In this document: in pieces, positions 2,952 through 17,768 of the stretch
Layout of the letters: the number at the start of each line of letters is the position of its first letter
Position numbering within the stretch: position 1 is the stretch's first letter
Source: a virus
Reading direction: 5' to 3' (one strand)
IMG/VR virus record: IMGVR_UViG_3300048588_000590
Location: 1 to 35,542 of that record
Length of the DNA: 35,542 nt
Made by a program: the position numbers and the translations under genes
The notes under the pieces: generated by a model
What the model was told of the DNA's origin: nothing
Database searches by the model: none
What the model saw: only the letters and a program-made list of their open reading frames with translations

Positions 2952-2952
2952 T

Positions 2953-2971: not shown

Positions 2972-2975
2972 TGTT

Positions 2976-2988
2976 ACTTATATATTTT
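2976..2988 (-). promoter_or_regulatory. Archaeal TATA box, early promoter II
   Basis: The minus strand reads aaaatatataagt. Its centre is about 64 bases before ATG 2918, giving a predicted leader near 37 bases that begins inside the operator palindrome. The expected unit is 28-residue gene, 49-residue gene, metzincin, TOPRIM protein and coiled-coil protein. Confidence 0.6.
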
Positions 2989-3047
2989 CTGCTTTTGCAG
3001 TAAACTTCCATATGGAGAATAAGTCAATACTCACAAATATAGCCAGT

Positions 3048-3239
3048 TCAACGCCGAGGAAGGAGCACCATTCCACAAGCCCCGCACGAGTGCGGCGGGT
3101 TCGGGTTGATGCCTCCGCAGTTGTCGCAGTGCGCGAATAGCTCGTAAGTGGCGGTTCGAAGACCTCCTTTTTTAGGCACTACGTCAAGTGCCTTGAAAGC
3201 CCTCTCAACAGCGTCCCGAGACCGTATCTCGACACTCAA
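3048..3239 (-). CDS. Small zinc-ribbon protein
   Basis: The protein has 63 residues. The C-terminal half carries CDNCGG and CGACG, a four-cysteine zinc ribbon with a Pro/His-rich spacer. The N-terminal half is helical and basic. The start is TTG at 3239, overlapping the regulator's stop (TTGA), with GAGG seven bases upstream. It is co-transcribed with the ribbon-helix-helix gene. Small zinc ribbons are abundant in archaeal viruses and often bind nucleic acid or RNA polymerase; here that is only suggestive. Confidence 0.75.
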   Translation of the reverse strand: MSVEIRSRDAVERAFKALDVVPKKGGLRTATYELFAHCDNCGGINPNPPHSCGACGMVLLPRR

Positions 3240-3580
3240 GAGAACGCCTCAAGAACGATTTCCTCGCCTGTTTGAGCCTTGTGAATCTCGCGCGCCTTCG
3301 CGAAGATGACCTCGTCATAGCGAGCTTCAAGCTCCGCGAGAGCCTTCTTCTTGACTTGCTGCGCTATCACATACTCCTCTTTGAGCACTGCGAGACGCTG
3401 TTCTGGGGCGAGTGCGTTGCCGTAATGGAACCTTAGTTGGTTGCGTACCCATTCGCTCATATTGTCGTACTTCTTACGCGTCGACCATATCCGCGCTGTT
3501 TCTGCGTCGAGTTGTACGAGTACGGTGTGTCCTTGCTTTTCGTGTTTTGCTTTGCCTTTGAGTTTCGTGTTTCGTGCCAT
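3236..3580 (-). CDS. Ribbon-helix-helix transcriptional regulator
   Basis: The protein has 114 residues with a basic N-terminal arm. Residues about 18-52 (HTVLVQLDAETARIW, then NMSEWVRNQLRFHYG) match the Arc/MetJ pattern of one beta strand followed by two helices. The C-terminal 60 residues form a charged coiled coil for dimerisation. It is the first gene after the regulatory gap and appears leaderless, with a TATA box centred 26 bases before its ATG. It is the best candidate to bind the palindromes at 1035 and 2953, and perhaps the one at 3633. Confidence 0.8.
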   Translation of the reverse strand: MARNTKLKGKAKHEKQGHTVLVQLDAETARIWSTRKKYDNMSEWVRNQLRFHYGNALAPEQRLAVLKEEYVIAQQVKKKALAELEARYDEVIFAKAREIHKAQTGEEIVLEAFS

Positions 3581-3586
3581 TTTTTG

Positions 3587-3611
3587 CTATATATTCTCAA
3601 GTTATATATCC
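3587..3611 (-). promoter_or_regulatory. TATA box pair, early promoter I
   Basis: Two TATA-like elements, gatatataac (3601-3610) and gaatatatagc (3587-3597), precede the regulator ATG at 3580. The distal one is centred 26 bases away, the ideal spacing for a leaderless archaeal transcript. The proximal one is too close to serve this start. Confidence 0.6.
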
Positions 3612-3632
3612 GGGAGAATCTTTCAATACGTC

Positions 3633-3647
3633 TCCAGCATAGCTGGA
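3633..3647. promoter_or_regulatory. Palindrome upstream of regulator promoter
   Basis: tccagcatagctgga has perfect six-base arms around a three-base centre. It lies about 25-40 bases upstream of the TATA box of the regulator gene, where an activator or an autoregulating repressor could bind. It shares the half-site agcata with the operators at 1035 and 2953, but is otherwise different. Confidence 0.45.
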
Positions 3648-3711
3648 AACGTGTTTTCAAGCTTTCTTCTTCTCTCTCCTTCTGATAGGTTCGAAGACGA
3701 TACTTGCGAAT

Positions 3712-3722
3712 GATATATAAAG
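3712..3722 (+). promoter_or_regulatory. Plus-strand TATA box
   Basis: gatatataaag is a good archaeal TATA sequence reading on the plus strand, opposite to every gene. It would start a transcript near 3738-3741 that ends at the hairpin and T6 run 100 bases on. No plus-strand gene follows, so any product would be a small RNA. Confidence 0.4.
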
Positions 3723-3726
3723 AACG

Positions 3727-3767
3727 AGTGCTACTCCTACCGTGTCCAGCGGTGTAACGGGAGCACT
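3727..3767. repeat. Bulged inverted repeat
   Basis: agtgct (3727-3732) pairs with agcact (3762-3767), and inside it accg (3739-3742) pairs with cggt (3750-3753) around a seven-base loop. The element stands alone next to an AT-rich block. It could be a protein-binding or replication structure. The predicted start from the adjacent TATA box falls inside it, which argues against a complete RNA hairpin from that promoter. Confidence 0.4.
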
Positions 3768-3846
3768 AATTCTTATCCCGAATTTTATATAACTTCGATA
3801 TATATACCCATTTTTAGTTCTCCGCGTTTGCGCGCGGGTGTTTTTT
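3740..3846 (+). ncRNA. Candidate plus-strand small RNA
   Basis: The interval runs from the start predicted by the plus-strand TATA box to the T6 run of a terminator-like hairpin, about 105 nucleotides. It contains no ATG and only a 16-codon GTG frame. If real, it would be the only plus-strand transcript of the genome. The evidence is positional signals only, with no conserved fold that I can recognise. Confidence 0.22.
3822..3846 (+). terminator. Hairpin plus T6, plus-strand terminator-like
   Basis: ccgcg (3822-3826) and cgcgg (3833-3837) form a GC stem with a six-base loop, followed after three bases by six T and further T-rich sequence. It fits termination of the putative plus-strand RNA. 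Confidence 0.4.
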
Positions 3847-3895
3847 GTTGGTGTTTCTTATTTAAAAAGATTGTAGTGAGAAGGGAAGTGTAGAA

Positions 3896-3907
3896 AATAA
3901 AAAAGAT
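3896..3907 (-). terminator. T-rich terminator of late transcript
   Basis: On the minus strand this reads atcttttttatt, about 45 bases after the holin-like gene stop. Archaeal polymerases terminate at T-runs without needing a hairpin. A small inverted repeat (accgt/acggt) overlaps the upstream stop codon. This is the expected end of the late transcription unit. Confidence 0.45.
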
Positions 3908-3949
3908 TTACTATATGGAAACTATGTCTTGCTTACGCAGACAGACCGT

Positions 3950-4195
3950 TTAAAGACGGTTGCGCCACTTCGACACGCTTGATTGAGCGGTCGCGCGCTG
4001 GCTCCGAACGACTGGTCCGCGGTTGCTGTCAGCGAACGACATAACAACCTCAAGAGCGCCTCGTACGGCTGCGGTGCCTGCGGCAATAAAGACGGTGGTG
4101 TTCCAAGCTTGCGAAGCAAGGAGAGCGGCTACGCCTGCGTACAAGCCCGAGAAGAGCATACGCCAAGCGACATTGATGAGTTCTTGTTTGTCCAT
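3950..4195 (-). CDS. Small holin-like membrane protein
   Basis: The protein has 81 residues. A hydrophobic span at residues about 10-28 (WRMLFSGLYAGVAALLAS) and a second, weaker one at 34-52 (TVFIAAGTAAVRGALEVVM) are followed by a basic, polar tail. Size and topology suit a holin or other egress factor inserted in the cytoplasmic membrane. The start ATG 4195 is chosen over TTG 4276 because a TATA-like element at 4277-4290 would place the transcript start below 4276, and GGAG precedes 4195. It is the last gene of the late region. Its leader holds a strong hairpin around the ribosome site. No sequence family is recognised with confidence. Confidence 0.7.
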   Translation of the reverse strand: MDKQELINVAWRMLFSGLYAGVAALLASQAWNTTVFIAAGTAAVRGALEVVMSFADSNRGPVVRSQRATAQSSVSKWRNRL

Positions 4196-4207
4196 AGTGG
4201 TTTTTCT

Positions 4208-4241
4208 CCGGCGCGAGAGTGAGCGCTTCAATACGCGCCGG
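4208..4241 (-). promoter_or_regulatory. Leader hairpin over ribosome site of holin-like gene
   Basis: ccggcgcg and cgcgccgg are perfect eight-base GC-only arms with an 18-base loop. On the minus-strand RNA the 3' arm overlaps the GGAG ribosome site of the holin-like gene, so the folded state should hinder initiation. This would let the virus delay synthesis of a toxic membrane protein. Confidence 0.5.
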
Positions 4242-4276
4242 GTTTCGCGACCTTGTCTATCGAATCGGTGTTTCAA

Positions 4277-4290
4277 GGATTTAAATGTGC
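4277..4290 (-). promoter_or_regulatory. TATA-like element before holin-like gene
   Basis: The minus strand reads gcacatttaaatcc, matching the cATTTAA variant also seen at 12762-12773. It lies in the short gap after the gene ending at 4297 and would give a leader of about 60 bases containing the hairpin at 4208-4241. Confidence 0.4.
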
Positions 4291-4296
4291 TGGGTT

Positions 4297-4692
4297 CTAC
4301 GCGCAGTCTTCTTCGTGGTCGTCGCTCGCAACGATGTCTTCGAGCAAGTGCTTATAGTAGCCAGTGTATGCTCCGTTGAGAGTTGCGTGGTCGAGCGCCG
4401 CATAGTACGCTTTGCATTCCCTTTCTTCAACCGTGAACGCTCTGTCTGGGTGGAACGCGCGCAAGAAAACAGGGTCTATGTCTATCCATCGCTGTATCGC
4501 GGCGTTGTAGCACTCGTCGAGCCACGTGTGAAGAGAATATCCCTTCGGCTTGAAGTGACCGAGCATATCATCAAGAGCGAGGAAACGGCTTGCACGGGGC
4601 GCGTACACGATGTCACCCATAAGGATTCTATTCAATCGGTAACGGTGTTTCGGCGTGGCTCCTTCAATTTCTTCTGGTGGTTCCCAAGTCAT
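4297..4692 (-). CDS. Conserved-looking late protein, possible transglutaminase-like fragment
   Basis: The protein has 131 residues. Residues 55-74 contain HTW, then CYN, then RWIDIDP. That spacing recalls the His and Asp parts of the transglutaminase/papain-like core (H-x-W ... W-x-x-x-D-P). However, no upstream cysteine nucleophile exists (the first Cys is 61), so enzymatic activity is doubtful. The C-terminus is acidic. The start ATG 4692 overlaps the stop of the phosphoesterase (ATGA); a longer frame to 4872 would run inside that gene. Placement between the phosphoesterase and the holin-like gene suggests a role late in infection. The assignment is weak. Confidence 0.7.
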   Translation of the reverse strand: MTWEPPEEIEGATPKHRYRLNRILMGDIVYAPRASRFLALDDMLGHFKPKGYSLHTWLDECYNAAIQRWIDIDPVFLRAFHPDRAFTVEERECKAYYAALDHATLNGAYTGYYKHLLEDIVASDDHEEDCA

Positions 4693-5504
4693 ACACTCAC
4701 TCGAATCATATACTCGTCGCCGTGAAGCTTTACTTTCGGCGTGCCCATCTTGCTTGGAGGCATCGACTGGGCTTGCGCGTAGCTGTTCTCCCAGCCGAGA
4801 TAATGACCCGTGAGGACGAAATGACGCTCTTTTGTGCGGACTGTGCCGGAGCGGTTGTCGATATAACGGCATTCCATCGCTGTTGCTGCTTTCTCGTGAA
4901 CGTGTCCCATCAAGTACACGTCCGCGTCAATGAAGCGCGATAGTTTGAGGAGCGGGAGCATTTTCTGTGTTGGTTCACGCGCTCCGCTGCTTCCGTGCGT
5001 CGCGTACAAATGATAGTTCTGCGAGCCGACGCGCATCTTCACGAAACCGCCGTTCCGATAATACGGTACGCCAAGCATTCCAGCGAGCGCAGCGCTCACG
5101 TCCACGCCCGTTTCTTTGAACACGCGGTCTTCGTGGTTCCCGTTCGTGGTGCCGATGATGCGTCCTTCTTCCGCGAACGGTTTGAAAACGCTGTACGCCC
5201 AGTCGATTTGTTCCCCTGCCGTCATTCGTTGCTCGTAAACGCCGCTCCCAACGCTGTATCGGGTGGCGGCTTCAATCAAGTCGCCGTTAAGAATTAAGAC
5301 GACGTCGGGTTTGTCCCAGCACCACTCAAGATTCTCCATAAAGAGCTCTTCGCGGAAGTTCGGGCTTCCCTTGTGAAGGTCGCTGAAAGGAACGAGAGTT
5401 GCTTTGTCAAGATGAGAAAAATCAGCGCTGATAAAGTTTGTTGGTCGAGCGTTGCGTGCCGCGTGCTCCTCGATTATTTCTTGGAGCGAGCGGCGGCGAG
5501 CCAT
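4689..5504 (-). CDS. Calcineurin-like metallophosphoesterase
   Basis: The protein has 271 residues with the full set of metallophosphoesterase motifs in order: SDLHKG (Asp42, His44), NGDLIE (Asp75), NGNHED (Asn123, His124), ATHG (His170) and MGHVHEK (His201, His203). These bind two metal ions and hydrolyse phosphomonoesters or diesters. Closest in style are viral and archaeal members of unknown substrate; DNA-processing Mre11-type enzymes are larger. It is encoded between two membrane proteins, which may be coincidental. It follows the coiled-coil membrane gene by three bases and overlaps the next gene by four. Confidence 0.92.
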   Translation of the reverse strand: MARRRSLQEIIEEHAARNARPTNFISADFSHLDKATLVPFSDLHKGSPNFREELFMENLEWCWDKPDVVLILNGDLIEAATRYSVGSGVYEQRMTAGEQIDWAYSVFKPFAEEGRIIGTTNGNHEDRVFKETGVDVSAALAGMLGVPYYRNGGFVKMRVGSQNYHLYATHGSSGAREPTQKMLPLLKLSRFIDADVYLMGHVHEKAATAMECRYIDNRSGTVRTKERHFVLTGHYLGWENSYAQAQSMPPSKMGTPKVKLHGDEYMIRVSV

Positions 5505-5507
5505 TTG

Positions 5508-5876
5508 TCAGAAGAGCCTCCCTGCTGTGATGATTGCGAGCCAAACGAGGATGACCGCGTCTTTGAGATATGGAAGAAATTTTGTTACGTATTCAAGCCA
5601 CCATCGGCGGTCGGCTTTGACTTCTCCGGCGGCTTTGGTTTCGAATTTGCTTCTCAAACGGTCGCGAGAAGAACGAGTTTCTATCGAAGAAACCCTGTTG
5701 ACGATTAGTTCCGCGTGTTCACGCATCCCCTTTATGTCTTGCTCTGCGCGCGTTACCCGACCATTGGTTGCGGTCACTTGAATTTCCACACGGTCAACTT
5801 TGGAGTGTAGGTCTCGTATGTCGCCTTTGAGAGAGCGGAGTGCCTCAAGAACGAGTGTTTGGTCTCCGCGAGGCAT
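5508..5876 (-). CDS. Coiled-coil protein with C-terminal membrane anchor
   Basis: The protein has 122 residues. Residues 8-75 form a heptad-rich coiled coil (LRSLKGDIRDLHSKVDRVEI). A basic linker with RRWWLEY and one C-terminal transmembrane segment (about 102-120, YLKDAVILVWLAIITAG) follow. The layout is like XhlA/haemolysin-type holin accessory proteins. The start ATG 5876 is favoured over an upstream in-frame start at 5921 because a TATA box is centred 27 bases before it, giving a leaderless message. Likely role: lysis or egress, or a membrane tether, together with the holin-like protein. Confidence 0.75.
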   Translation of the reverse strand: MPRGDQTLVLEALRSLKGDIRDLHSKVDRVEIQVTATNGRVTRAEQDIKGMREHAELIVNRVSSIETRSSRDRLRSKFETKAAGEVKADRRWWLEYVTKFLPYLKDAVILVWLAIITAGRLF

Positions 5877-5897
5877 AGTGAAGAAAGGGAAAAACTT

Positions 5898-5910
5898 GTT
5901 TATATGGTTT
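5898..5910 (-). promoter_or_regulatory. TATA box of leaderless membrane-protein gene
   Basis: The minus strand reads aaaccatataaac, centred 27 bases before ATG 5876. This strong match to the genome's late consensus starts an egress unit: coiled-coil membrane protein, phosphoesterase and the gene at 4297-4692. Confidence 0.65.
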
Positions 5911-5921
5911 AGCATAGGCAT

Positions 5922-6236
5922 TCAGTAAACGCACGCGACGAGGTTGCAGGAGCACTCCGGCGTGACGTTTTCTCCGCAGTATCCCGTCCAGTCCCATTCG
6001 CTTTTCTGTCCATCGCACGAGTGAACGTCCATCAAGTCTTGACATAGTTCCATACAAGCGCTGTTGTTGAGCCCTGTGTAGTTCTTCACTGCGTTCGTGT
6101 TTCCTATTTCGTAGCATACGCTCGTTGCTTTCGGGACGCAAGTGAGGTTTTCTGGGCAGGCTGTCGGGGAAACGGGAGTGCAGGCTGTCATCACGAAAGC
6201 TGCTGCGAACAACCAAGCAAGGGTCTTCAAGTTCAT
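5922..6236 (-). CDS. Cysteine-rich secreted lipoprotein
   Basis: The protein has 104 residues. Residues 1-18 are a signal peptide ending in the lipobox-like VMTAC, with Cys19 the expected lipidated residue. The mature part has ten further cysteines and sequons NYT, NNS and NVT, as expected of a disulfide-bonded, glycosylated surface protein. The start overlaps the stop of the larger lipoprotein (ATGA). No enzymatic motif is visible. Viral lipoproteins are often superinfection-exclusion factors, a guess here based on topology. Confidence 0.85.
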   Translation of the reverse strand: MNLKTLAWLFAAAFVMTACTPVSPTACPENLTCVPKATSVCYEIGNTNAVKNYTGLNNSACMELCQDLMDVHSCDGQKSEWDWTGYCGENVTPECSCNLVACVY

Positions 6237-6853
6237 CGTAATCGCACCACCGGAGTTTCTGGTTCTTCGTCTTTCCCGAGCACAGGCACGTCGGTCGATA
6301 ATGGCGGGCGTGTGCGCTCACGGATAAGTTCTTTTACTGGTTCGAGGTCAACTGCTCGAAGGTCTTTCTTGAATGAAAGCTCTGTGGAATTTCCTGTCAC
6401 GGGGTCTGTGCAGCGCCACACGAAGACGTGCGTGTACTGGCTCCGTGCGTCTTCGCTTGTGAGAAGCGCTTTCCGTGAACAAGTTGAAATATTTACGCGG
6501 TTGCTCGTGTTGAGGCGTTCGTATTCAAGTTCCCAAGCAGCGGCGACCGTCAAGTAGTCGACGCGTGTTGAAGTGTTTGCATCAACGAATATTTCGTACG
6601 GGGCGCGGCGGTCTCCTGTCGATACGTTGCCGACGACTTCTGCTTCTGTGAATCGCTCTGTTTTGTTTTCTATCGTTCGATTGAACGCCGTTCGGATGGG
6701 GTTTTCGTCGATGCTTGTGATGTTTTTTTGCGCGGAAGCTGTGGGTGTTTGAGCGCATCCAGTGATTAAAACGACAAGAAACAGCGCTGCGACTGCTATG
6801 AAGCACACTTTGAAGAGGCTTGGTTTGATGTCAACTTTTCTTGGTGTGCTCAT
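6233..6853 (-). CDS. Membrane-anchored lipoprotein with many glycosylation sequons
   Basis: The protein has 206 residues. A positively charged N-terminus precedes a hydrophobic stretch (residues 14-31) ending LITGC, a lipobox at Cys33. The mature domain has eight N-x-S/T sequons (for example NIT, NRT, NKT, NVS, NIS) and two cysteines, and ends in a Pro-rich acidic tail. It overlaps the LamG protein stop and the small lipoprotein start by four bases each, so it belongs to the surface module. Either it anchors the secreted LamG protein or it alters the host envelope; I cannot decide which. Confidence 0.85.
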   Translation of the reverse strand: MSTPRKVDIKPSLFKVCFIAVAALFLVVLITGCAQTPTASAQKNITSIDENPIRTAFNRTIENKTERFTEAEVVGNVSTGDRRAPYEIFVDANTSTRVDYLTVAAAWELEYERLNTSNRVNISTCSRKALLTSEDARSQYTHVFVWRCTDPVTGNSTELSFKKDLRAVDLEPVKELIRERTRPPLSTDVPVLGKDEEPETPVVRLR

Positions 6854-9807
6854 TCTATCGCGAACTCCGGGTTGTCATCCCATAGGTGAAGGTCTACTTC
6901 TGCATCGGCTACGGGTAGAAGATAGCTAAAATTGTATCGGTCCTCGTCCGTCACGTTACGGTAGAGAATGGTTGCGCGAGCCATTGTTCCATCCCAGTTG
7001 TTGAACGCTGTTCCTTCCGAACCAATGATGACGGTGTTTCCTGTGCTGTTGCGTCCGTATGCTGCGGTGCTGTTTCGTACGCTGAATCCGTCCACCCACA
7101 TTTGAAGACGGTCATCGCCGTCAAACGAAGCGACTACGCTGCACCATTCACCAACGGCACACCTTCGAGAGCTGTTTCCGTTGTGGAATATCCCCTGCGG
7201 GCTTATCCATTGAACGTCGCATTCGCTCGCGCTGAAATCGTTTGTTGGGCGCAAGTCATATCCGTTGCTGCTTCCATAGCTGTATAGGTGGTTGATGTAG
7301 TTGCGGACGTTGCAGTTCTCGTGCTTCACGATGAACATATACGTTATTGGCTGCGTGTCCGTGTAGCTCGGTAGAGGGTCCCCTGCGCCGAGAGCGCTTG
7401 AAAGGTAGAGGCTGCTGTCCACGCTGTCTTGGAAGAACTTTCCGTCGTCACGCTGTACTGCTCGGTAGTTCATAAAGTCGTGGTCGCTGCCGCTTCTGTC
7501 GGTGGTTCGGTATAGTCGCGGCTCGAACCCGCTTCCGTCGCAAACTTGTTTGTCCGTGTAGTTGTTGAAGCGCCACAAAACTTCGAGGTTCGTCGTCATA
7601 TCAGTCAAGAGGCTTCCGTTGTGAAGGACTTCTGCTTCGTCCGCACTCAATTCTCTTCCGTACCAGAAAGCGACGTCATCAACACCGCCCTCGTATAATT
7701 GGCTTCCGTACTCGTTGCACAAACGGAGGTCGTTGTTGCCGTTGTTGCCGTTCTTCCCGGTGATGATGTTGTCGACTGCGAGGCAGTTGTTCACGTAGAG
7801 TTGTTGAAGACCGCTTGAACCGTTGAACGTGTGCGTCACGCTGTTCCAACTGTCGATGGCGTACTGGCAGTCTTCTCCGCCATAGTAGAAGTCCACCCCG
7901 TAAACGACGACTGCTTCTGAAAGACCGGACAAGCTTCCGTCGACAAATAGGTTGTATCCTTCGTTTGCTCCGTAGTTGAAACGGTTCACCAACACGCTTT
8001 GGAAAGCGACTTGTCCCGGTTGTACTTTGAAGTGCGTGCTGATGACGTCGCTGCTTGTGTAGTCTGTGGTGACTGCGTCGCCTTCGATGTAGTCGTTCAC
8101 TCCGTCGCAATAGTAGAACCCGTACCCGTTACTTTGATTTATCCACGCTGCGTCGATGGTTGTGACGTCGTTGTTGTTTCCGCTCTCGTCATCAAGAGGA
8201 CCTACGTCGGTGAGGTTCACGACAGAACAGAAGTTCGTTCCTTCGCCGTTTGTGGAAAGAACCCCGCTTTCTTGAAGATTGACTTGCTTCGCTCCGTCAA
8301 CGCGGTCAATCGTCACTTCGCCATCGCCAAGCACTGTTGCGGTGTTTCCTTTGAGGTCGATGCTTTCTTGGTTGCACAAGAGTTCTCCGTCCACAGAATA
8401 ATCGCCGTAACCAACATAATTGCATCCTTCGTCATTCGCTGCGCGTCCTTGACGGTATAGTTCTCGAACACCGAAGTATCCGATGTCCCTGTCGTATAGA
8501 CGAACGTCGTCAATGGCTCCATCCCACCCGCCTCCACTCACTCCCCATCCTGCGAAGAAGTGGTCTTCATCAGCTTCTACTTTGTCGCCTGCGAAAGTCC
8601 AGTTGTTCGTTATGATGCCGTTCGTGTAGAGGAGCGCTTTGTCGTCCTCGTAGTTTGCAGTCATACAAAGGTGCGTCCACGTCTGCGCGGGAACGGGGTT
8701 TGTTATGTCGCTCGTGCATCCGCTGAACCATCGGCAAGAGTATTCGGTGCTTCCGTCGTCCCATATCTGGAGGTCGTACACGCTGTTTCCGCTGCTGTTT
8801 CCAACGGAGAGCTTCCAAGCGTAGTTGCTTCCGCTGCTCTCGCTTCCCATAACTACTCCGTACGTGTTCATATTCGCCCACGTGCACGCTGTGAAGCCGT
8901 TGCGGTAGTCGATGATGGTGTTTGTTGTTCGAGAGAGTTTTTGTCCGCTTGTGTGTTCCCAGCTCGTGTCGGCAGAGTTCCAAGTTCCGCTTACTGTGTC
9001 AAGCGCTACGCTGTTTCCGCTGCTGTCTGCGACGGTGCTTGCTGTCGTGAAGGCGGGAGTGAAGCTGTATCGAAGAATGAGGTCGTTTTCGAGGTCTGCG
9101 ATGGCTGGGCGAATTGGAGAAGGCTTAACGGCAATGGTGACAACACCTCCGCTCACAGTGTCTGCATCGCTGAATGTTCCGGGGTTCACTGTTTGCGTTC
9201 GCTCTTTGTACCAAGCGACTTGTGCAGCGGCGTTACTGGTTCCTGTGCCGCTGTTAACGTGTTGTCCGTTCACGAAGCCGCTCGGGTAGGTCGTTACTCC
9301 TGTGTTCGTGCTGCTTCCGAAGTAAGCGAACCAAGTGTTTTCCGCGACTTGCCAATCTGTCGATAGGGAAGGCGGGTCTGGGCTTGCTGTTGTGCCGCCC
9401 GGGTCTGCTGTCGCGCAGTCGATTCCGCCCGCGACTTGTCCGTGCCAACTACCTTTGCGTATGCGATAAGTAATTGAAGCGAAAGCCTCGTCAACGGTGT
9501 TTCCTACCGTGACGCTGCTTCCTTCTGTTCCGTCGGCTCGTTTCGCGAGAACGTGCGCTGTTGCGAAAGTAGAACGAGACTGTGAGCATATAACGTCCCA
9601 CCCTGTGCTGCTCGGGACACCGACCCCGTCGCTTGTGAAGAACATAAGAAGCAAGTCGCCGTCTTCCGCTGCGGGGACGTCCACGGAGTAGCTTGTACCG
9701 CTCGTGGCGCTATCCGTCACTCCTGCGCCTTTCACTACTGGGTAGAGCGCGAATGCTCCGGGCAGCGCGAAGAGAAGCGCTACTACGAATATTATTGGTT
9801 TGCGCAT
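6850..9807 (-). CDS. Large secreted LamG adhesin / tail-fibre-like protein
   Basis: The protein has 985 residues. A Sec signal peptide (RKPIIFVVALLFALPGAFA) begins it. Residues about 25-230 are a beta-rich domain typical of viral and surface adhesins. Three LamG/concanavalin-like domains follow: about 240-455 (WDGAIDDVRLYDRDIG), 525-745 (GGVDDVAFWYGRELS) and 755-985. These folds bind glycans. Several cysteines and NxS/T sites fit an extracellular location. The start ATG 9807 follows GAGGGAG and overlaps the previous gene by 16 bases. It sits where tail fibres sit, but the signal peptide implies export. It is therefore either a host-surface protein or a fibre matured outside the cytoplasm. Confidence 0.88.
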   Translation of the reverse strand: MRKPIIFVVALLFALPGAFALYPVVKGAGVTDSATSGTSYSVDVPAAEDGDLLLMFFTSDGVGVPSSTGWDVICSQSRSTFATAHVLAKRADGTEGSSVTVGNTVDEAFASITYRIRKGSWHGQVAGGIDCATADPGGTTASPDPPSLSTDWQVAENTWFAYFGSSTNTGVTTYPSGFVNGQHVNSGTGTSNAAAQVAWYKERTQTVNPGTFSDADTVSGGVVTIAVKPSPIRPAIADLENDLILRYSFTPAFTTASTVADSSGNSVALDTVSGTWNSADTSWEHTSGQKLSRTTNTIIDYRNGFTACTWANMNTYGVVMGSESSGSNYAWKLSVGNSSGNSVYDLQIWDDGSTEYSCRWFSGCTSDITNPVPAQTWTHLCMTANYEDDKALLYTNGIITNNWTFAGDKVEADEDHFFAGWGVSGGGWDGAIDDVRLYDRDIGYFGVRELYRQGRAANDEGCNYVGYGDYSVDGELLCNQESIDLKGNTATVLGDGEVTIDRVDGAKQVNLQESGVLSTNGEGTNFCSVVNLTDVGPLDDESGNNNDVTTIDAAWINQSNGYGFYYCDGVNDYIEGDAVTTDYTSSDVISTHFKVQPGQVAFQSVLVNRFNYGANEGYNLFVDGSLSGLSEAVVVYGVDFYYGGEDCQYAIDSWNSVTHTFNGSSGLQQLYVNNCLAVDNIITGKNGNNGNNDLRLCNEYGSQLYEGGVDDVAFWYGRELSADEAEVLHNGSLLTDMTTNLEVLWRFNNYTDKQVCDGSGFEPRLYRTTDRSGSDHDFMNYRAVQRDDGKFFQDSVDSSLYLSSALGAGDPLPSYTDTQPITYMFIVKHENCNVRNYINHLYSYGSSNGYDLRPTNDFSASECDVQWISPQGIFHNGNSSRRCAVGEWCSVVASFDGDDRLQMWVDGFSVRNSTAAYGRNSTGNTVIIGSEGTAFNNWDGTMARATILYRNVTDEDRYNFSYLLPVADAEVDLHLWDDNPEFAIE

Positions 9808-12110
9808 ACTCCCTCGTCGCCACTCGGACCACAGAACGAGGTTTCCGTGGCGTTCCAGCAGTAAATCGCTCGTCCGCCCGCGTAGGAACAACCCGTCGTG
9901 CTCGTCACAGTGATATTCTGTGTTGCAACGAAACTCTCGGCGTAAGTGTCGTTCTGAACATACAAGTTTGCCTTGCCAGTGTTCGTGTTGGTTATGTTGA
10001 TAGCTGTGTTACTTGTGCTAAAAGAACGAAACTCATTATTGGTGTTTGCAAGCAGAATGTATTGATAGTTATCCCATTCCACGGCTTCACCGCCACCGTT
10101 AATATATAACCGAGGAGAATACGAAGGACTTTTACTAATGTATGCTGTTCCAGAGTCGCTGGTGTATAGCTTGTAGTCGCCGAGACGGATGTCTTTCGTC
10201 AAGTTTGCCGACGCGTCAAATGGTGAATCCCCGCTTCCACTGCCAGCTTCTTTTGGAACATAAACGCACTGCACGCCGCCCGTTGTTGTGTTTTGCGTTA
10301 CTGCGTAGTGTGTGCTGTTGCTTCCGGCGCAGTTTCCGGTTCCTGCTTTCGCGTTCCAAGTTGAAGCGCTTGATATGTAGCTGTCGCCGATGGCGTTTCC
10401 TTGATACGTCGCGCCTGTGATTACTCCGTTCGTTACGTCCCAAGTGTCGGAGGCGACGTCTATCCTGTCTCCTCCATCGCCCACTGTGAGAGTTCCTGTC
10501 GTGGTGAGGGTTCCGCTGATGCTGTTGCTACCGATAGTGCCGCCGCTCACCGTGAGCGCGTCTGCTACGTCCGCGTCAACAACGTCTGTTCCGCCGATGC
10601 GGTAAACGTAGGCTCCGCCGATTGTGACTGCTGTCGGAATGTCTGTTGCTATGCTTGGAACTCCTGCTCCGCTCGTTACGAGAACGCCGCTGTTTGCTGT
10701 GGTTATTTGTCCGACCACGTTTGTTGCGCTGCTGTAAAGGATGCGGTTGACTGTCGTGCTCACTGGGTACGTTGCACTGCTCCACGCTGGAAGAGCACTC
10801 GCTCCGCCACTTCGAAGGACTTGACCGCTGCTCCCTGTTGCGAGAGTTTGATGCGCCCCGGTGGCGGTTGTTCCTGCCGCGATGAGCCCGTACGCAGTCG
10901 TGCTCGTACTGCGACCAGTACCGCCGTCGGAAACAGGGACGTCTGTACCGCCTGCGCTGTAATACGTTCCTGCTGCTTGATACACGCTGCTTATGTCGTC
11001 GCAGTTCCCTTCGCCGTCAAGGTAAGTGGTTGTTCCACTGCATATAGTGTTCGCGTTTGTGTTGTCGTCACCGTCGCTCAATCCGCTCGGGATGCTTGTT
11101 AAGCTACTGAAAACGCCGTCGAAATCGTTTGTGCTGTCAGTGTCAAGGTTCGGGTACGTTCCGTCAACAGCAGCAACAATCTCGGCAGTGGTATTGCCGC
11201 CTCCTGTTGCTGTGCTGCTTACGATGATGTCATTTCCTGAAAGAACCACTGTGACGCCTGTTCCGTTCTTTACGCGTATAGTTTCTCCGTCACCGATGCT
11301 CGTGCTGCTTGTTTCGTTCCCCCAGTTGAAAGAAGCGATGCCACTGCTCGCGCTGTTGTCGATTCCGCACTGCCAAGCTCCGCTCGTGCTGTTCCACTCA
11401 AGAATCTCTCCGTCGGAACAACCTTGCGCTTTATCGAGCTTCGATGCGTTGATGGATGCGATACTCGCGTTCTGTGTTGCGTCGACTGCTACTGCTGCGT
11501 TTGCTGTGCTTTGAGCGGTTGCTGCGTCAGCGAGCGCTTGTACTGCGGTATCGTTTACTGTTCCGAGCCCTGTTTGGAGTGCTGTGATGTTCACTTGAAG
11601 CGCTGAAAGAATGGTTGTGAGACCTTGAACTGCTCCTTGAGAGATAGAAATAGCTACGTTCGTGAAAAGGGTTGCTCGTCCGTCTTGGTCGAAAGTACCT
11701 TGCGCCACGTGTGAAGCGTTGCCGTAAGTTCCGGGAGTTACTGCTGTGTCTTGCAGTGCTGTTGGTGAGACGACGCCTGTTCCTTCGTTGATGTAGCGAG
11801 CGTCTGCCCACGAGGTGTTCACTGAAAGGTTCTTGTACGTGTCGTTCCCTTGCACTATGACTGTGTTGTCGGCTGCTACGAGACCAGAAAAGTTCGCTCC
11901 CGAGCCACTGCCGCCGCTTCCGCTGCCGTTTACTTCGCTCCACGAATTGATGCACCCGCTCGTGTTGAGGCATAGCCACGCTGCGTTGTTGATGCCGTAG
12001 TTCGTTCTGAATGTGATGTTCCTGTCGCTGTACTGGTCGGAGAGCGCGGAGACTGATGCGACCATAGTGACGGCGAAGATGATTGCTGCGATTAGTGGGA
12101 GGTTTTTCAT
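9792..12110 (-). CDS. Tail-fibre-like protein with N-terminal signal peptide
   Basis: The protein has 772 residues. Residues 1-22 (MKNLPLIAAIIFAVTMVASV) form a signal peptide. The body is Ser/Thr/Gly-rich with fibre features: a GSGSG-linked region, a helical Ala-rich stretch (about 145-210), the phage-fibre signature VSDGGTGRST and SSGQVLRSGG, then beta-repeat segments. The C-terminal 30 residues hold a Cys pair motif (CSYAGGRAIYCW, CGPSGDEGVC) and sequons. The start ATG 12110 forms TAATG with the upstream stop. The text reads as a receptor-binding fibre, yet it should be secreted. That mismatch links it with the LamG protein downstream. Confidence 0.88.
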   Translation of the reverse strand: MKNLPLIAAIIFAVTMVASVSALSDQYSDRNITFRTNYGINNAAWLCLNTSGCINSWSEVNGSGSGGSGSGANFSGLVAADNTVIVQGNDTYKNLSVNTSWADARYINEGTGVVSPTALQDTAVTPGTYGNASHVAQGTFDQDGRATLFTNVAISISQGAVQGLTTILSALQVNITALQTGLGTVNDTAVQALADAATAQSTANAAVAVDATQNASIASINASKLDKAQGCSDGEILEWNSTSGAWQCGIDNSASSGIASFNWGNETSSTSIGDGETIRVKNGTGVTVVLSGNDIIVSSTATGGGNTTAEIVAAVDGTYPNLDTDSTNDFDGVFSSLTSIPSGLSDGDDNTNANTICSGTTTYLDGEGNCDDISSVYQAAGTYYSAGGTDVPVSDGGTGRSTSTTAYGLIAAGTTATGAHQTLATGSSGQVLRSGGASALPAWSSATYPVSTTVNRILYSSATNVVGQITTANSGVLVTSGAGVPSIATDIPTAVTIGGAYVYRIGGTDVVDADVADALTVSGGTIGSNSISGTLTTTGTLTVGDGGDRIDVASDTWDVTNGVITGATYQGNAIGDSYISSASTWNAKAGTGNCAGSNSTHYAVTQNTTTGGVQCVYVPKEAGSGSGDSPFDASANLTKDIRLGDYKLYTSDSGTAYISKSPSYSPRLYINGGGEAVEWDNYQYILLANTNNEFRSFSTSNTAINITNTNTGKANLYVQNDTYAESFVATQNITVTSTTGCSYAGGRAIYCWNATETSFCGPSGDEGVCANQ

Positions 12111-12364
12111 TATGCGTCGTTGAGGATTATTTCCTTCCAAGAGGTGTTCGTGAGACCTACTGCGTAGTACACTTGGTCGGTGTCCGTGTCTGTGTAAGTC
12201 TGCCCGCGGTACGCGGGAGTGGTTACTCCTTGCGGGCTTCCGCTGCCGTTCAAGGCTGCTCCTTGTACAGTGAGGTTTTCTACGATGTTGAGTGTGATGT
12301 TGTCGAGTTCCGTGATGGTTGCGTCGATGGAATCGTACTCTGTGATGGTGAGTGTCACTGCCAT
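12110..12364 (-). CDS. Small baseplate/fibre-associated protein
   Basis: The protein has 84 residues. The N-terminal half is beta-rich with alternating hydrophobics (LDNITLNIVENLTVQG). The C-terminal half has GQTYTDTDTDQVYYAVG, then NTSWKEI, which resembles the short GxxYxDT...YxxxGTxxxW unit common in phage tail fibres. The start has GAGGTGAGC just upstream, at the end of the preceding gene. It probably trimerises with or caps a fibre. Confidence 0.75.
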   Translation of the reverse strand: MAVTLTITEYDSIDATITELDNITLNIVENLTVQGAALNGSGSPQGVTTPAYRGQTYTDTDTDQVYYAVGLTNTSWKEIILNDA

Positions 12365-12366
12365 TT

Positions 12367-12738
12367 TCAGCTCACCTCGGTCACTCGCGGAACAAGAGTT
12401 ATTTTTCCCCCGAGGAGGCGTTTCGGCGTGCTTGAACCGTCGATTGAGAATAGGTCGTAGCTTGCGGTGCTGAAAGAGAGGTCGTTCACGTCGTCCTCGT
12501 CTATGAGTAGCTGGAATACTCCGTCGGGTCCGTCTACGATGGTGATGCGTCCGTTCGCGCTTGTGAGGGCGATGTACGTTGTCGCGCTCCCTGCTTTGGG
12601 TTTGACGCTCATTGAGAAAGTGTAGGTCGATATGTCTATGGGGTCGCCAGTAGATGTATCTGTGACGCGTATGCGTCGGCGCCACGGCATCCCTTGCTTC
12701 ATTGTTGTATTGTAGGGTTGCTCAACGATAACGACCAT
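12367..12738 (-). CDS. Baseplate protein, BppU N-terminal-like
   Basis: The protein has 123 residues. The pattern KQGMPWRRRIRV, then DPIDISTYTFSMSVKP, then DGVFQLLIDEDDVNDL matches the beta-sandwich at the N-terminus of upper baseplate proteins (xQGxxxxxxxxxxDxxGxPxDLTGYxxxxxxR). The ATG 12738 would be leaderless from the TATA-like element at 12762-12773. An in-frame ATG at 12702 lies downstream of a second TATA-like sequence (gtataaaag, 12741-12749) and is an alternative start. Confidence 0.75.
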   Translation of the reverse strand: MVVIVEQPYNTTMKQGMPWRRRIRVTDTSTGDPIDISTYTFSMSVKPKAGSATTYIALTSANGRITIVDGPDGVFQLLIDEDDVNDLSFSTASYDLFSIDGSSTPKRLLGGKITLVPRVTEVS

Positions 12739-12761
12739 AGCTTTTATACGCCTCTCTTCGC

Positions 12762-12773
12762 CTTAAATGTTTT
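12762..12773 (-). promoter_or_regulatory. TATA-like element before baseplate gene
   Basis: The minus strand reads aaaacatttaag, centred about 28 bases before ATG 12738. It shares AAACAT with the other late promoters. It probably adds expression for the fibre and surface module. Confidence 0.45.
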
Positions 12774-12781
12774 GCTTTGCT

Positions 12782-13732
12782 TTATAGGAACTCGAACCCG
12801 AGCTCTTCTACTACGAGCGGCATCGGGATTGCCATTGAGAACTGGCTGCTTCCTGCGAAAACGAGACCTACCGCTGCTTGGTCTGTGCGGCTTACGAGGA
12901 CGCTTCCGCTGTCTCCGCGGTCGCTCATATAAGAGTATAGGTCTACGCCTGTGAATGTGAGGGGTTTTTCGAGCCCGTAGTCGATGGTGACGGTCACTCC
13001 TCGGTCTCGGAGTGCTCCGAAAGTGTACTCCGTTGTTCGCCCGTACTTGTGCACTACTTCGTTACTCGCGGGTTCTCTGTATCCTTTGATGCTCCCGACT
13101 TTGATGATGCTCGCAACTGGCTCTTCATTCAGAGCGACTATTGCTGCGTCGATTTTGTTGTTCGCGGCTCTTTCGAGTGCTGGGCTGCACGCTACGGTTC
13201 CGATTACCCTGCCGCTTATCCCGGGCTGGATAATGCTTGCTCCGAGAACTGGTCTTGTTGGGTCGCGGTTCACTACGTGCGCGTTCGTAAGAAGACCTCG
13301 GCGCATTTCTACGTCATCGCCGCGTGCGCGGAATAATCGCAGGAAGCCTCCGAGGAATCGTCCGAGAAGCGATGTTTGTTTGTAGACCGCGTATTGTATG
13401 GGTGCTCCTGCTGTTCCCATAAAACCTTCTCCGCTCGGTCCTATCTCGCATCCGCCGCGAATTGGTTTGTAGCTTTTCCTGTCTGCGAGCGCGCGTACGT
13501 TTCCGAGTTCGATGACTTTCGTTGGCTTGCTTTTGAGGACGCCTGTCTTGATTGTTTCCGGGACGATGTCTTTTTCAGTCCAGTTCGGAAGCGAAGGGTC
13601 GCTTACTTTGCGTTGCAGCGTTGGCATCTTCATTTTCTTCTGCACGTACACGCGAACTTCTGCTTTGTCTTCTTTGAAGCCGACGACGTTGTAGTTCGTT
13701 TCGTCGAGGAATTTCTTTAAGTGACGATTCAT
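12782..13732 (-). CDS. Trypsin-like serine protease in tail module
   Basis: The protein has 316 residues. The chymotrypsin-fold triad is complete: His152 in LLTNAHVV, Asp195 in NNKIDAAIVAL and Ser275 in SDRGDSGSVLV. Residues 1-100 form a basic N-terminal region with no signal peptide, followed by a glycine-rich entry to the protease domain. It is encoded between baseplate and fibre genes, so it may be a virion-borne protease that processes tail proteins or cuts host surface (S-layer) protein during entry. It could also be a cytoplasmic maturation enzyme. The fold call is firm; the role is inference. Confidence 0.9.
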   Translation of the reverse strand: MNRHLKKFLDETNYNVVGFKEDKAEVRVYVQKKMKMPTLQRKVSDPSLPNWTEKDIVPETIKTGVLKSKPTKVIELGNVRALADRKSYKPIRGGCEIGPSGEGFMGTAGAPIQYAVYKQTSLLGRFLGGFLRLFRARGDDVEMRRGLLTNAHVVNRDPTRPVLGASIIQPGISGRVIGTVACSPALERAANNKIDAAIVALNEEPVASIIKVGSIKGYREPASNEVVHKYGRTTEYTFGALRDRGVTVTIDYGLEKPLTFTGVDLYSYMSDRGDSGSVLVSRTDQAAVGLVFAGSSQFSMAIPMPLVVEELGFEFL

Positions 13733-13735
13733 ATT

Positions 13736-14830
13736 TTATGCCTCGTAAAAGACCGCGAGTTCCACGACCTTTGATGAAAATAATGCGCTTCCGTTCGAGC
13801 GAGTTTCGATGATTCGAGCGCACAAGTTGTTCCCTGTGTTCGCGAACTCAACCCATTCTCCGTTGTTGACGGTGGTCCAGTTGCTCCCTCCGTTCGCGGA
13901 TAGATAGATGACGCGTGTGAGCGCGCTTGCAGCGGCGCCGCCTTTAATTGTTCGTACGTTATCGAAACGCCCGGTCCAAGTGTACGTGCGCGAACCCCAG
14001 CCAATATCATTTATGACAACGCGAAGAGTGATTGTTTGGTTTCCTTCGAGGGCTTCTACGTCTATGATGAATGTTCCGCTTGTACTATCGGAGCCCCCTG
14101 TCATAGCGACGCTGTCGCTCGCTGATACTCCTCCAACGTCAATTGATATTGTTGCTCCGTGAGCGAGTGCTGCGCCCGCTGTCTGGGTCATTGTGAGAGA
14201 GTAATCGACGGAAACGTATCTTATTCCTGTGACGTTTATTGTTTGCGTGAGTGTTGAGTATGAAGGGTCGACGCCGCTGTTTTGGTTTGTGATGCTTCCG
14301 TTGACTTCTGCGCAATAGGTTCCTTCTGTTTCTCCTGTGGTGCTGCGCGTCCAAACCACAGTTCCAGTATTTCCCGTCACTATATCTGCCGCTTCGGTCC
14401 AGCTTCCGAATACGTCAAGACCGCCGCCGCCCGCTGTTTCGAAGCCTTTGTTTGCGACTATGCCTGTGTCTTCGTCTCCTGCGTCGTAGAACTCGAACCA
14501 CACGCAAGCCGCGCGTATTGTTGGGGTCTCGTTCTTTTGCGCGCCGGAGAGCATATCGCTTATGACGAGTGTTGCTTGCGCTGTTTGTGTGTTCGTGTAC
14601 TGGTCGCCTGTTCCGTCGTAAGTCCAGTTCGTCTTCGTTGTTGCTGTGTCGCTGTCGAAAAGGTCGTGTACTGCTTTGTGGAGTTTCGTGAGAGTGTAGC
14701 CGCTCGTTACGTCGAGCTTTTGCAGATTGAGGTACGTTCCGAGAAGGCGTTTTGAGAGGCTGTTGAAATTGTCATTCACCTCTTGCGCTTCTCCGTCCGT
14801 CGCATCTACGAATTTAGTGAATTCTGCCAT
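13736..14830 (-). CDS. Baseplate / receptor-binding tail protein
   Basis: The protein has 364 residues. The N-terminus (VDATDGEAQEVNDNFNSL) is of the kind that attaches fibres to baseplates. A linker leads to a long Gly/Ser/Thr-rich beta region (about 60-300) resembling a carbohydrate-binding jelly roll, with FETAGGGGLDVFGSW and FDNVRTIKGG near its ends. The C-terminus carries SANGGSNWTTVNNGEW. There is no signal peptide, in contrast to the two fibre-like proteins downstream. It is preceded immediately by a small baseplate protein. Confidence 0.82.
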   Translation of the reverse strand: MAEFTKFVDATDGEAQEVNDNFNSLSKRLLGTYLNLQKLDVTSGYTLTKLHKAVHDLFDSDTATTKTNWTYDGTGDQYTNTQTAQATLVISDMLSGAQKNETPTIRAACVWFEFYDAGDEDTGIVANKGFETAGGGGLDVFGSWTEAADIVTGNTGTVVWTRSTTGETEGTYCAEVNGSITNQNSGVDPSYSTLTQTINVTGIRYVSVDYSLTMTQTAGAALAHGATISIDVGGVSASDSVAMTGGSDSTSGTFIIDVEALEGNQTITLRVVINDIGWGSRTYTWTGRFDNVRTIKGGAAASALTRVIYLSANGGSNWTTVNNGEWVEFANTGNNLCARIIETRSNGSALFSSKVVELAVFYEA

Positions 14831-14831
14831 T

Positions 14832-15209: not shown

Positions 15210-17768
15210 CTATGCTTTGCTCCACACGTCGCAGCGACGCACTCGGGACGCGTTCGTGTCTTTGGAGCCGAGCACTACCGACCCGGCGGCGGTGATGCTC
15301 GTGTCAGTCTCTTTGATGAACCGGGTGTCGCTATTTCGGACTTGGTGAACCCCGTTTATATATTTGACTGTGAACGTCTCCGCCTCGCTGAATGTGTGCG
15401 CGGTGGTCGATAACTGTGTGCGTGTTCCACCAACGATTTTTGACAGCGTCACGCTTCCGCTTGTTGCGTCGAGGTCGAGCTCGTAGTGGTTCTCGAAGTC
15501 TGTGAACTGGTATAGCACGAGGAGTTGTCCGTCGCCGCTCGGGAAGTCTGTTTCTACTACGAGGCGTCCTTCGCTTTGCGTGAACGCGCTCACGTCCCAG
15601 CCGTCATATACTCCGAAGCTTCCGAGATTCGCGTACGTGTTCCCGAGGTTGTTGTTGTAGCGCAGAGCGACTGCTCCCGCTTTGAGGGTGTGACCGCTAT
15701 ATGCCGCTACGTCTTCAATGAGACCGTCGAAGTATTGACCGCCCGCGAAGCTTCCTATGTATGCGGGACCAGTGCCGAAACCGGAGAACGTGCTCGCCCA
15801 TACTGTCGGGCTTCCTCCGTTCACGTACGCTCGGAAGTTTGTTCCGTCGTAAGTGACTACTACGTGGTACCAAGTCCCGGCGACGAAGCTCGCGCTCACT
15901 TGCTGTGCGAGCAGACTTCCTCCTCCGTTCCTGTATCCGACGTATATCCCGTCGGTTTCTTGTCTTATGTGAACTGCCGTGCTTCCTGCTGTTGTCGCGA
16001 AGTTCACTATGCGTCGTCCGCTTCCTGCTCCGTCGGCTTTGAAGCTCGCTTCTATCGTCCAATTCGAGTTGTTCGTTATTATCGTGCTGCTGTTCGGGAG
16101 AGTGATTTGGCTGCTTGAACCGTTGAAATTTCCTGCTTGTCCCGTGCGTCCGGTCGCGTACGCCATACTTGTTGGTGTTCCGTTGTTGCTTCCGTGACTG
16201 TCGTTCGCGTTCCCGTCGAGCGCCCAGTACCCCGCGCATTTGCTCGCGTTGAATTGCAGAAGGAGCGCGCTGTCGTTCACGTCGTCATAGAGTGATGATA
16301 GCAATAAGTTCCATACGTCTTCGAGGTCGTACGCTCCGGCTGTTGTGTTGAAGTTCGAGAAAGTCCCTCCTTCGCCTCTCTTCCCCCATTTGGCGTTGCC
16401 CCATTGCGACGTCCCCCATATCCAGCCCGCGTTGAGCTCTCTTGCGAAGTTGTCTTGTGTGACCGCGAGTTCTATATTGAGGTCTTCGTGCACCACGTCG
16501 TAAAGAGAGAGTATCTCGCTTTCGCCGTCTTTTTCTTCGAGTTGGCGCACGCGCTCTTGTGCTTCCGCGAACCAGTCGAAGAGCTTGACGTCTTTGCTTC
16601 CGACGCTGATGATGCTCGTGTTTTGCGGATAAGCGAACTGCACTTCATCAACGACGAGCTCTTCATTGACTGAATCGGTTGCGTCAACGACGCGTACGGA
16701 TACTCCGCTGCGTACGTTGTTCTTGAAACCAATCACCGGAAGAGGGGCTCTTTTTGTTGGTAGAGCGTGGACGTCCAAGTATTCTTTCGCGAGCTTGCGC
16801 GCTTCCGAGAATGCAGTGACGCCTTTGACTTTGAATTTCCTTTGCTTGCGACCGCTTCCGCGCGTGCTCGTCACTCTGATAGGCACTGCTCGTTCGTACG
16901 AGATGTTTATTGTGTGCCCTGCTGTTCGTCCGCTTGAGAAAGTCACTGTCTTCGCTCGGCGGTCGAGCGTGTAGCTTCCAGTAGTTGCTCCGGTAATGAT
17001 GGGGTTTTGGAGTGCTCCGTTGTCTGTCACGAGCACGTTTCCGATTGGTTCGTACGTGAGGTCGAACACTGTTTGCGATGCGGTTGCTGTGAATGTGTCT
17101 GGTTGGTTGAAGAGCGCTGTGTCGCCTTCGATGATTACTCTGTTCACGACCCAGTCCGAGTTCTCTTCCCATACTGGCTTCTCGTAGATGTCAGTCCCAA
17201 CGGTGAGCGTTACTCCGCTGCTTTCAACGCCGCTTGGTTCGAGGTAAGCGTTTTTTTGCGGGTCTGTTCGGAAGCGCCAACCGAGTATGTCTCCGACGAT
17301 TGTTTTGAGGAATTCTGAAATGCGCTTGTCTTTGAAAACAACTGGACCGTCGACGCCGATTGTCAAGCCGCTACTCGTAGTCGGTGCTACGTACGTTAGG
17401 TCTGTGTAGTTCGTGATGACGTATTCCACCGCTGCTTCGGGTGTTGTGTTTCTGAATACTTCGTTGACGTATTTGTCGAGGAATTCTGTTCCGTAGCTGT
17501 AAGCAACTACTGCTATGTACGGGTAGTCTTTGAGTGGTTGGTCTATGCGTCCACCGAAGCGGGGAGTGCTCGCTCCGTCCGGCGTCCAGCGTATTTCTCG
17601 GTCGTACACTGGCGTCGCGGTTTCAGCGAGGAGTTCTCGTTTGAAGTAGACTTCGAGCTTGTCCGTTGCTTTGTCGCCTTTGTCGTAGAAAGCGAATGCA
17701 GCGACGAACTCCATCACGTCCGTCCAAGTCACACCGTCGTCTTCGAGAAGCTCTATGACGTGCGCCAC
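15210..17768 (-). CDS. Tail hub/baseplate protein with fused LamG domain
   Basis: The protein has 852 residues. Residues 1-400 resemble tail-hub proteins, with an N-terminal beta domain, a central domain with WRFRTDPQKNAYLEPSG and a closing VVDEVQFAYP. Residues 400-440 are a helical hinge, followed by the tryptophan-rich motif WGTSQWGNAKWG. Residues about 512-715 are a LamG lectin-like domain (YWALDGNANDSHG, then GLIEDVAAYSGH), and a further beta domain ends the protein. The fusion puts a glycan-binding module on the tail tip. The start is GTG at 17768, four bases after the previous gene. Confidence 0.85.
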   Translation of the reverse strand: MAHVIELLEDDGVTWTDVMEFVAAFAFYDKGDKATDKLEVYFKRELLAETATPVYDREIRWTPDGASTPRFGGRIDQPLKDYPYIAVVAYSYGTEFLDKYVNEVFRNTTPEAAVEYVITNYTDLTYVAPTTSSGLTIGVDGPVVFKDKRISEFLKTIVGDILGWRFRTDPQKNAYLEPSGVESSGVTLTVGTDIYEKPVWEENSDWVVNRVIIEGDTALFNQPDTFTATASQTVFDLTYEPIGNVLVTDNGALQNPIITGATTGSYTLDRRAKTVTFSSGRTAGHTINISYERAVPIRVTSTRGSGRKQRKFKVKGVTAFSEARKLAKEYLDVHALPTKRAPLPVIGFKNNVRSGVSVRVVDATDSVNEELVVDEVQFAYPQNTSIISVGSKDVKLFDWFAEAQERVRQLEEKDGESEILSLYDVVHEDLNIELAVTQDNFARELNAGWIWGTSQWGNAKWGKRGEGGTFSNFNTTAGAYDLEDVWNLLLSSLYDDVNDSALLLQFNASKCAGYWALDGNANDSHGSNNGTPTSMAYATGRTGQAGNFNGSSSQITLPNSSTIITNNSNWTIEASFKADGAGSGRRIVNFATTAGSTAVHIRQETDGIYVGYRNGGGSLLAQQVSASFVAGTWYHVVVTYDGTNFRAYVNGGSPTVWASTFSGFGTGPAYIGSFAGGQYFDGLIEDVAAYSGHTLKAGAVALRYNNNLGNTYANLGSFGVYDGWDVSAFTQSEGRLVVETDFPSGDGQLLVLYQFTDFENHYELDLDATSGSVTLSKIVGGTRTQLSTTAHTFSEAETFTVKYINGVHQVRNSDTRFIKETDTSITAAGSVVLGSKDTNASRVRRCDVWSKA

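Follow-up and report, generated by a model that had tools for sequence, protein, structure and literature searches.

Predicted export of a fibre–lectin module encoded by a tailed virus of a probably archaeal host

The usual view is that tailed-virus fibres fold in the cytoplasm and are assembled there. Phage proteins associated with diversity-generating retroelements (DGRs) have been reported to lack signal peptides, according to the available text of PMC6199706. For PblB, a phage tail protein known from S. pneumoniae NTUH-P15, a signal peptide prediction is already in print, and the S. mitis PblB is described as released upon phage-induced permeabilisation and as binding other cells (accessible sections of PMC4508584). 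T5 encodes Llp, a small lipoprotein that blocks the receptor of the virus itself and adsorption to debris (PMC9586334, in the part available). Here we describe four contiguous genes, P0001 to P0004, of IMG/VR record IMGVR_UViG_3300048588_000590 (35.5 kb, called the window throughout), which carry export signals, paired cysteines and LamG domains and whose fibre–lectin pair recurs in exported form in other viruses. The initial annotation had called export unexpected for tail parts; the DGR proteins agree with that view, whereas PblB, as far as its source is available, shows that such export would not be unique. Our reading, held with slightly more doubt than belief, is that of a tailed virus of an archaeon with a binding module that is exported by the general secretory (Sec) pathway and acts at the cell surface or outside the cell.

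The tailed-virus genes of the window, which encode terminase, portal, HK97-type capsid, tape-measure and tail proteins, are without exception on the minus strand. Behind the tail module, from 12110 to 5922, P0001 (9792..12110, 772 amino acids (aa)), P0002 (6850..9807, 985 aa), P0003 (6233..6853, 206 aa) and P0004 (5922..6236, 104 aa) follow one another on the same strand with overlapping or abutting ends and with the sizes first given for them. Signal peptides were called by hydropathy, charge and cleavage rules together with reading, the rule being applied to open reading frames (ORFs) of at least 250 aa; the features required were a basic n-region, a hydrophobic h-region and small residues at −3/−1, or a lipobox. 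P0001 begins with MKNLPLIAAIIFAVTMVASVSA followed by LSDQ and P0002 with MRKPIIFVVALLFALPGAFA followed by LYPV, each with the n-, h- and c-regions and the A-x-A-like site of a Sec-type signal peptide. These cuts were read by eye; the rule flags both proteins as signal-peptide-like but places the cuts elsewhere. P0003 and P0004, which fall under the size cut, were judged by reading and hydropathy, and their hydrophobic stretches terminate in the lipobox-like LITGC and FVMTAC, respectively. Among 49 gene calls, six have a mean hydropathy >2.2 over 10 residues within the first 40, and signal-peptide architecture was found in only four, P0001 to P0004, which all adjoin one another (probability of such a run of four among 49 genes by chance, ~2e-4). 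Support for the start of P0001 comes from its TAATG overlap with the gene before it, for that of P0002 from a ribosome-binding site, GAGGGAG, and for those of P0003 and P0004 from ATGA-type overlaps or abutting ends. Chance or a misannotated start as the source of the signals was rejected, because the starts are coupled to neighbouring genes and longer upstream starts retain the hydrophobic stretch. The N-terminal signal peptides first noticed in P0001 and P0002 were thereby borne out by rule, by reading and by supported starts, as were the two lipobox proteins by the motifs that end their hydrophobic stretches. To judge from these sequences, all four proteins are very probably exported from the cell.

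The body of P0001 is formed by fibre-like repeats with five Cys-pair stretches, among them TNANTICSGTTTYLDGEGNCDDISSVYQ at aa ~351–378, and each of its 12 cysteines has a neighbouring cysteine no more than 25 residues away (6.3 expected). P0001 to P0004 contain 12, 18, 4 and 11 cysteines, versus 0 to 3 in each of eleven tail-region genes from 12110 to 21380. The lipobox proteins had been described as cysteine-rich, which is apt for P0004 (11 of 104 residues) and hardly so for P0003 (4 of 206). No Pfam or PHROG family matched P0001; we call it fibre-like because of its genomic place and because its shaft repeats are common to signal-less fibre-like proteins of two other viral contigs, L015 and L016 (that of L015 has no Pfam family). 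In P0002, an N-terminal domain precedes three LamG stretches (PF13385; 83.6 bits against a cut-off of 27.6, E 2.1e-23). Among solved structures none matched P0002 or P0003, and the matches for P0001 and P0004 were unconvincing; a single-sequence fold of P0004 was unusable (predicted local distance difference test score, 50), and a defence library held no match for any of the four. N-glycosylation sequons exceed the shuffled expectation in P0003 (8 versus 1.7, z 5.6), P0004 (4 versus 1.3, z 2.6) and P0001 (23 versus 14.6, z 2.7). The lipobox proteins are thus sequon-rich relative to shuffles, as had been claimed, but relative to the mirror motif the pooled exported set (47 versus 36) shows no stronger bias than the remaining genes do (60 versus 42). 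Fibres of the relatives described below (n = 13) show a strong sequon excess in five cases (L011, L013, L046, L049 and L050; z 3.4 to 11) and not in the other eight.

The exported fibre recurs in other viruses. A scan of IMG/VR with P0001 returned 15 loci, eleven of which share a Cys-pair motif around CSGTTTYLDGEGNCDDISSVY, and an alignment search added six motif contigs, giving 17 besides the window. Every one of the 17 motif ORFs starts with a signal peptide or signal anchor; the rule identified 12 of these, and reading the other five (three below the 250-aa cut and two without a basic n-region). The remaining four loci of the P0001 scan comprise one with a signal peptide (L014) and three without (L009, L015 and L016). 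A looser DNA pattern matched 12 contigs only; the twelfth, L034, was left out of the signal-peptide count, as its stretch starts too near the motif. The motif is probably under selection, because its coding DNA has diverged (53–65 of 90 nucleotides (nt) identical to the window) and yet the protein is retained. Its invariance (DGEGNCDD) is partly built into the search pattern, whereas signal peptides were not demanded by the searches. In INPHARED the motif was not found with a peptide query at E 10, a search in which BLAST low-complexity filtering may conceal matches. With the same rule as above, signal-like ORFs of at least 250 aa made up 25 of 86 in motif loci versus 6 of 128 across 17 control loci.

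An alternative is that the hydrophobic N-termini serve as membrane or virion anchors and not as working export signals, or that some of the sequence in the contig and its relatives is cellular and was wrongly assigned to viruses. The fibres of L011 and L013 and the lectins of L046 and L050 resemble signal anchors with long n-regions, and phrog_2 finds a terminase in only 6 of 18 contigs. Against this stand the terminase, portal, capsid and tape-measure genes on one strand of the window, the terminase, portal and capsid genes of L050, and the A-x-A-like sites in independent lineages, and we consider the alternative very unlikely.

Several further loci caught our attention during the scans. The control matches include a fibre-like protein of L020 and a large protein of L018, neither of which was chosen for export, because both stem from a topoisomerase-based scan. 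These phage contigs encode large signal-peptide-bearing proteins (L020:3585-6119 and 7815-9920; L018:12200-15631), one of them plainly fibre-like, with signal sequences that look Bacteroidota-like, and exported fibres may occur there too. In L014, which lacks the Cys motif, five consecutive signal-peptide genes follow tail-type genes (9188-20141), two of them with beta-helix domains. On L046, a probable archaeal contig, type IV pilin-like N-termini were recognised by reading beside the exported fibre (2313-2825 and 7196-8118).

The fibre is repeatedly accompanied by a lectin. LamG was found in 6 of 18 contigs (the 17 motif contigs and L014), and in all six cases it lies directly downstream of the exported fibre; in L005 and L006 a single small gene separates the two. 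Four of the six downstream lectins have a signal peptide by rule, and those of L050 and L051 have a signal anchor by reading. The L050/L051 pair lies between capsid/neck and tail genes, adjoining terminase (phrog_38), portal and capsid (phrog_1357), and the L005 pair is flanked by the genes for a collagen-like tail fibre and for an endolysin. Scanning with the lectins of L005, L006 and L048 yielded 47 viral relatives, 40 without and seven with a signal peptide. The upstream gene was exported for 5 of 7 signal-bearing lectins versus 2 of 30 assessable signal-less ones when scored automatically (Fisher p 9e-4; the 10 of 40 signal-less rows without a complete upstream gene were not counted). After four odd rows had been read (L054 and L084 recoded as upstream exported, L071 and L090 as not), the counts became 7 of 7 versus 0 of 30 (p 9.7e-8; 3.1e-6 with lineages collapsed). 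L078 and L081, in which start-finding failed (9 and 2 residues), were retained among the 40. Only L067 and L077 of the seven signal-bearing lectins are lineages outside the motif set and its close kin; alone they give p 0.002. Independent lineages are fewer than contigs (about 15 and 5) because of near-duplicates (L047/L048, L050/L051 and L083–L085). Upstream export tracks the signal peptide of the lectin, and therefore the fibre and lectin signals come as a pair. P0002 itself is matched to the L050 lectin at E 0.015, and a match of its N-terminal domain within the L006 fibre was rejected as not significant (E 0.66). P0002 and the other exported lectins belong to one domain family and have the same architecture, but we do not term them orthologues because their pairwise similarity is weak. 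The initial annotation, which envisaged a module that coats the infected cell, mediates adhesion or decorates released virions, gains support in part: export of fibre-like virus proteins is backed by the signals of the motif relatives, the co-occurrence of fibre and lectin signals, the Cys pairs of P0001 and a sequon excess in three of the four proteins.

The host was judged from promoters and sequons because homology gave no host signal: the terminase had no relatives in GTDB contigs (exact-peptide scan) or IMG/VR, the capsid had none in IMG/VR, where alone it was scanned, and none were confirmed for P0001 in GTDB contigs (exact-peptide scan). The sequence AAAACATATAA, which we take to fit the archaeal B recognition element (BRE)/TATA element, occurs at six sites on the coding strand and none on the other, each with no more than one mismatch, versus 0.31 expected, and 0 of 100 shuffles reached six; three such sites are located 41–47 nt before gene starts. 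The archaeal BRE/TATA-like element AAAACATTTAA (12763..12773, minus strand) lies ~35 nt before the start at 12738, that of the gene that probably heads the P0001–P0004 unit. Sigma-70 sites are at chance level in window positions 1–16000 (8 versus 7.7 expected). The BRE/TATA-like promoters and the sequons point to a host that is probably archaeal. The topoisomerase of the window (1461-2357, minus strand; phrog_6247, E 1.7e-97) is 53% identical to those of Flavobacterium psychrophilum phages despite the archaeal-looking host. As a host marker it was rejected, being common to Flavobacterium, Pseudomonas and other phages and not discriminating among them.

We propose that one late transcription unit after the tail genes would yield a Sec-exported binding module in which P0001 is a fibre braced by disulfides, P0002 a lectin with three LamG domains, and P0003 and P0004 are small lipoproteins. 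The proteins would cross the membrane, their cysteine pairs would oxidise to disulfides and their sequons would gain N-glycans in the archaeal host. They may then sit on and around the infected cell, with the lipoproteins partly tethering the set. Late in infection, the module would occupy the surface glycans or receptors of the virus itself, and infected cells, neighbours and debris would then no longer adsorb sibling or competing virions. Taken alone, this role in binding or masking the receptors or glycans of the virus is possible but somewhat doubtful.

The strongest rival gives the same proteins a place on the virion. P0001 and P0002 would gain disulfides and glycans outside the cell, attach to virions during or after release and replace or extend the cytoplasmic fibres. 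Their genes occupy a tail-fibre slot, in L050/L051 one inside the head–tail operon; Desulfofustis phages have signal-less relatives of the lectin with the annotations 'virion structural protein' and 'capsid protein'; and the C-terminal domain of the exported L005 fibre is a virion tail-fibre domain (phrog_9017, phrog_19200). Virions would, however, have to catch soluble fibres extracellularly, reading showed no conserved N-terminal segment for docking behind the signal peptides, and the window retains signal-less tail proteins, one of which has a LamG domain. Because the domains and the genomic slot are those of virion fibres, this account, although rather more doubtful than believable, is nearly as likely as ours. 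We prefer a binder that acts at the surface or outside the cell, by receptor masking or exclusion, to fibres that join virions after maturing outside.

Several observations weigh against a masking module of this kind. The genomic slot and the shared domains, being those of virion fibres, fit the virion account at least as well with regard to role. The LamG region of P0002 resembles that of the signal-less tail-module protein with one LamG domain (15210..17768, minus strand), the within-virus comparison for P0002, only weakly (E 0.03), and masking of the same ligand is therefore without sequence support. Sequons in P0002 are at expectation (12 versus 12.1); given this and the pooled mirror-motif ratio, which is like that of other genes, a sequon excess was rejected as a feature common to the exported proteins of the window. 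Cysteine density is not higher in signal-bearing lectins than in signal-less ones (0.60 versus 0.67 per 100 aa, p 0.85), so that cysteine enrichment or bracing was rejected as a general mark of exported lectins. In two methanogen tailed viruses, none of the genes examined encodes a signal peptide (0 of 19 and 0 of 8), and the exported module is therefore not general for archaeal tailed viruses.

The module could also be a cell-surface adhesin or lysogenic-conversion cargo that alters the adhesion of the infected or carrier cell, to the benefit of the host or of a long-lived carrier state. The combination of signal peptide, LamG and lipoproteins is a cellular-adhesin architecture, and cellular DGR targets usually bear such signals (PMC8144416, in the text available). 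We regard this as unlikely: no integrase or repressor was found among the genes scanned, which were part of the total, the module genes overlap and match the tail module in composition, and the context of the relatives is late.

Upstream of P0002's partner fibre, the gene at 12367..12738 (minus strand) belongs to phrog_1084, a family of unassigned function (E 1.5e-20), and is probably the first gene of the unit with P0001 to P0004. The 84-aa protein directly upstream of P0001 (12110..12364, minus strand), whose end forms the TAATG overlap, has a C-terminus that presumably resembles a tail-fibre collar. On the other side, a 137-aa protein with a coiled coil and a C-terminal transmembrane segment (5508..5921, minus strand) abuts P0004. 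Elsewhere on the minus strand of the window, a trypsin-like protease without a signal peptide (phrog_20754) lies inside the tail module at 12782-13732, and a short protein at 2354-2689 has the zincin motif HEIMHTLGMRH (Peptidase_M10 E 0.0016, under the cut-off). The protein at 34619-34912, with the sequence KIFHGTTRAKYRKMLNEGV, has no Pfam match; we take it to be reminiscent of ADP-ribosyltransferase-like proteins.

Beyond the window, archaeal and bacterial tailed viruses may share an exported receptor-binding class that has gone unrecognised, in which a Cys-paired fibre and a LamG lectin jointly gain signal peptides and mature outside the cytoplasm (with disulfides everywhere and N-glycans in archaea), so that an extracellular apparatus for adsorption or exclusion would exist in addition to the classical tail assembled in the cytoplasm. 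We consider this generalisation rather doubtful. A recurrent exported pair with a signal-less twin in the same families would mean that some tailed viruses either complete the apparatus for adsorption extracellularly or use late-gene capacity to remodel the infected-cell surface, and in both cases the annotation of receptor-binding proteins in uncultured viruses, archaeal above all, would change.

Among known viruses, HGTV-1 shares a distant terminase similarity (28%) with the window, and vir520 and vir249 share phrog_7339 and differ by having no signal peptides in the genes checked. Close to the exported lectins are signal-less DUF2341/LamG structural proteins of phages (such as Desulfofustis phages OP947159 and OP947158; 40 of the 47 viral relatives), whose lectin family also includes the exported LamG proteins of L005, L006 and L048. 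The relatives in OP947159 and OP947158 lie among structural genes and lack a signal peptide; many of the signal-less proteins open directly with the domain (MAWYNSNWSYR...), and none has an exported upstream gene where this could be assessed. The likeness of P0003 and P0004 to T5 Llp, as small lipobox proteins beside fibre genes, consists of the lipobox-type N-terminus and gene position only, with no sequence relation shown. Llp differs in being periplasmic in a diderm bacterium, and the available part of its source describes no exported fibre or lectin partner (PMC9586334). PblA and PblB of temperate Streptococcus phages are comparable in that both are tail-like phage proteins with an adhesin role at the surface, PblB with its predicted signal peptide; their host is bacterial, and the accessible text mentions no LamG, Cys-pair fibre or lipoproteins (PMC4508584). 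Family scans of the window proteins, which included no direct comparison, gave nothing pointing to PblA/PblB. Literature searches combining signal peptides with tail fibres or archaeal viruses gave no report of an exported fibre–lectin module; a separate search gave one related report, that on PblB. PblB already provides an example of a tail protein for which a signal peptide is predicted; the joint export of a Cys-paired fibre with a LamG lectin did not turn up in the literature searched.

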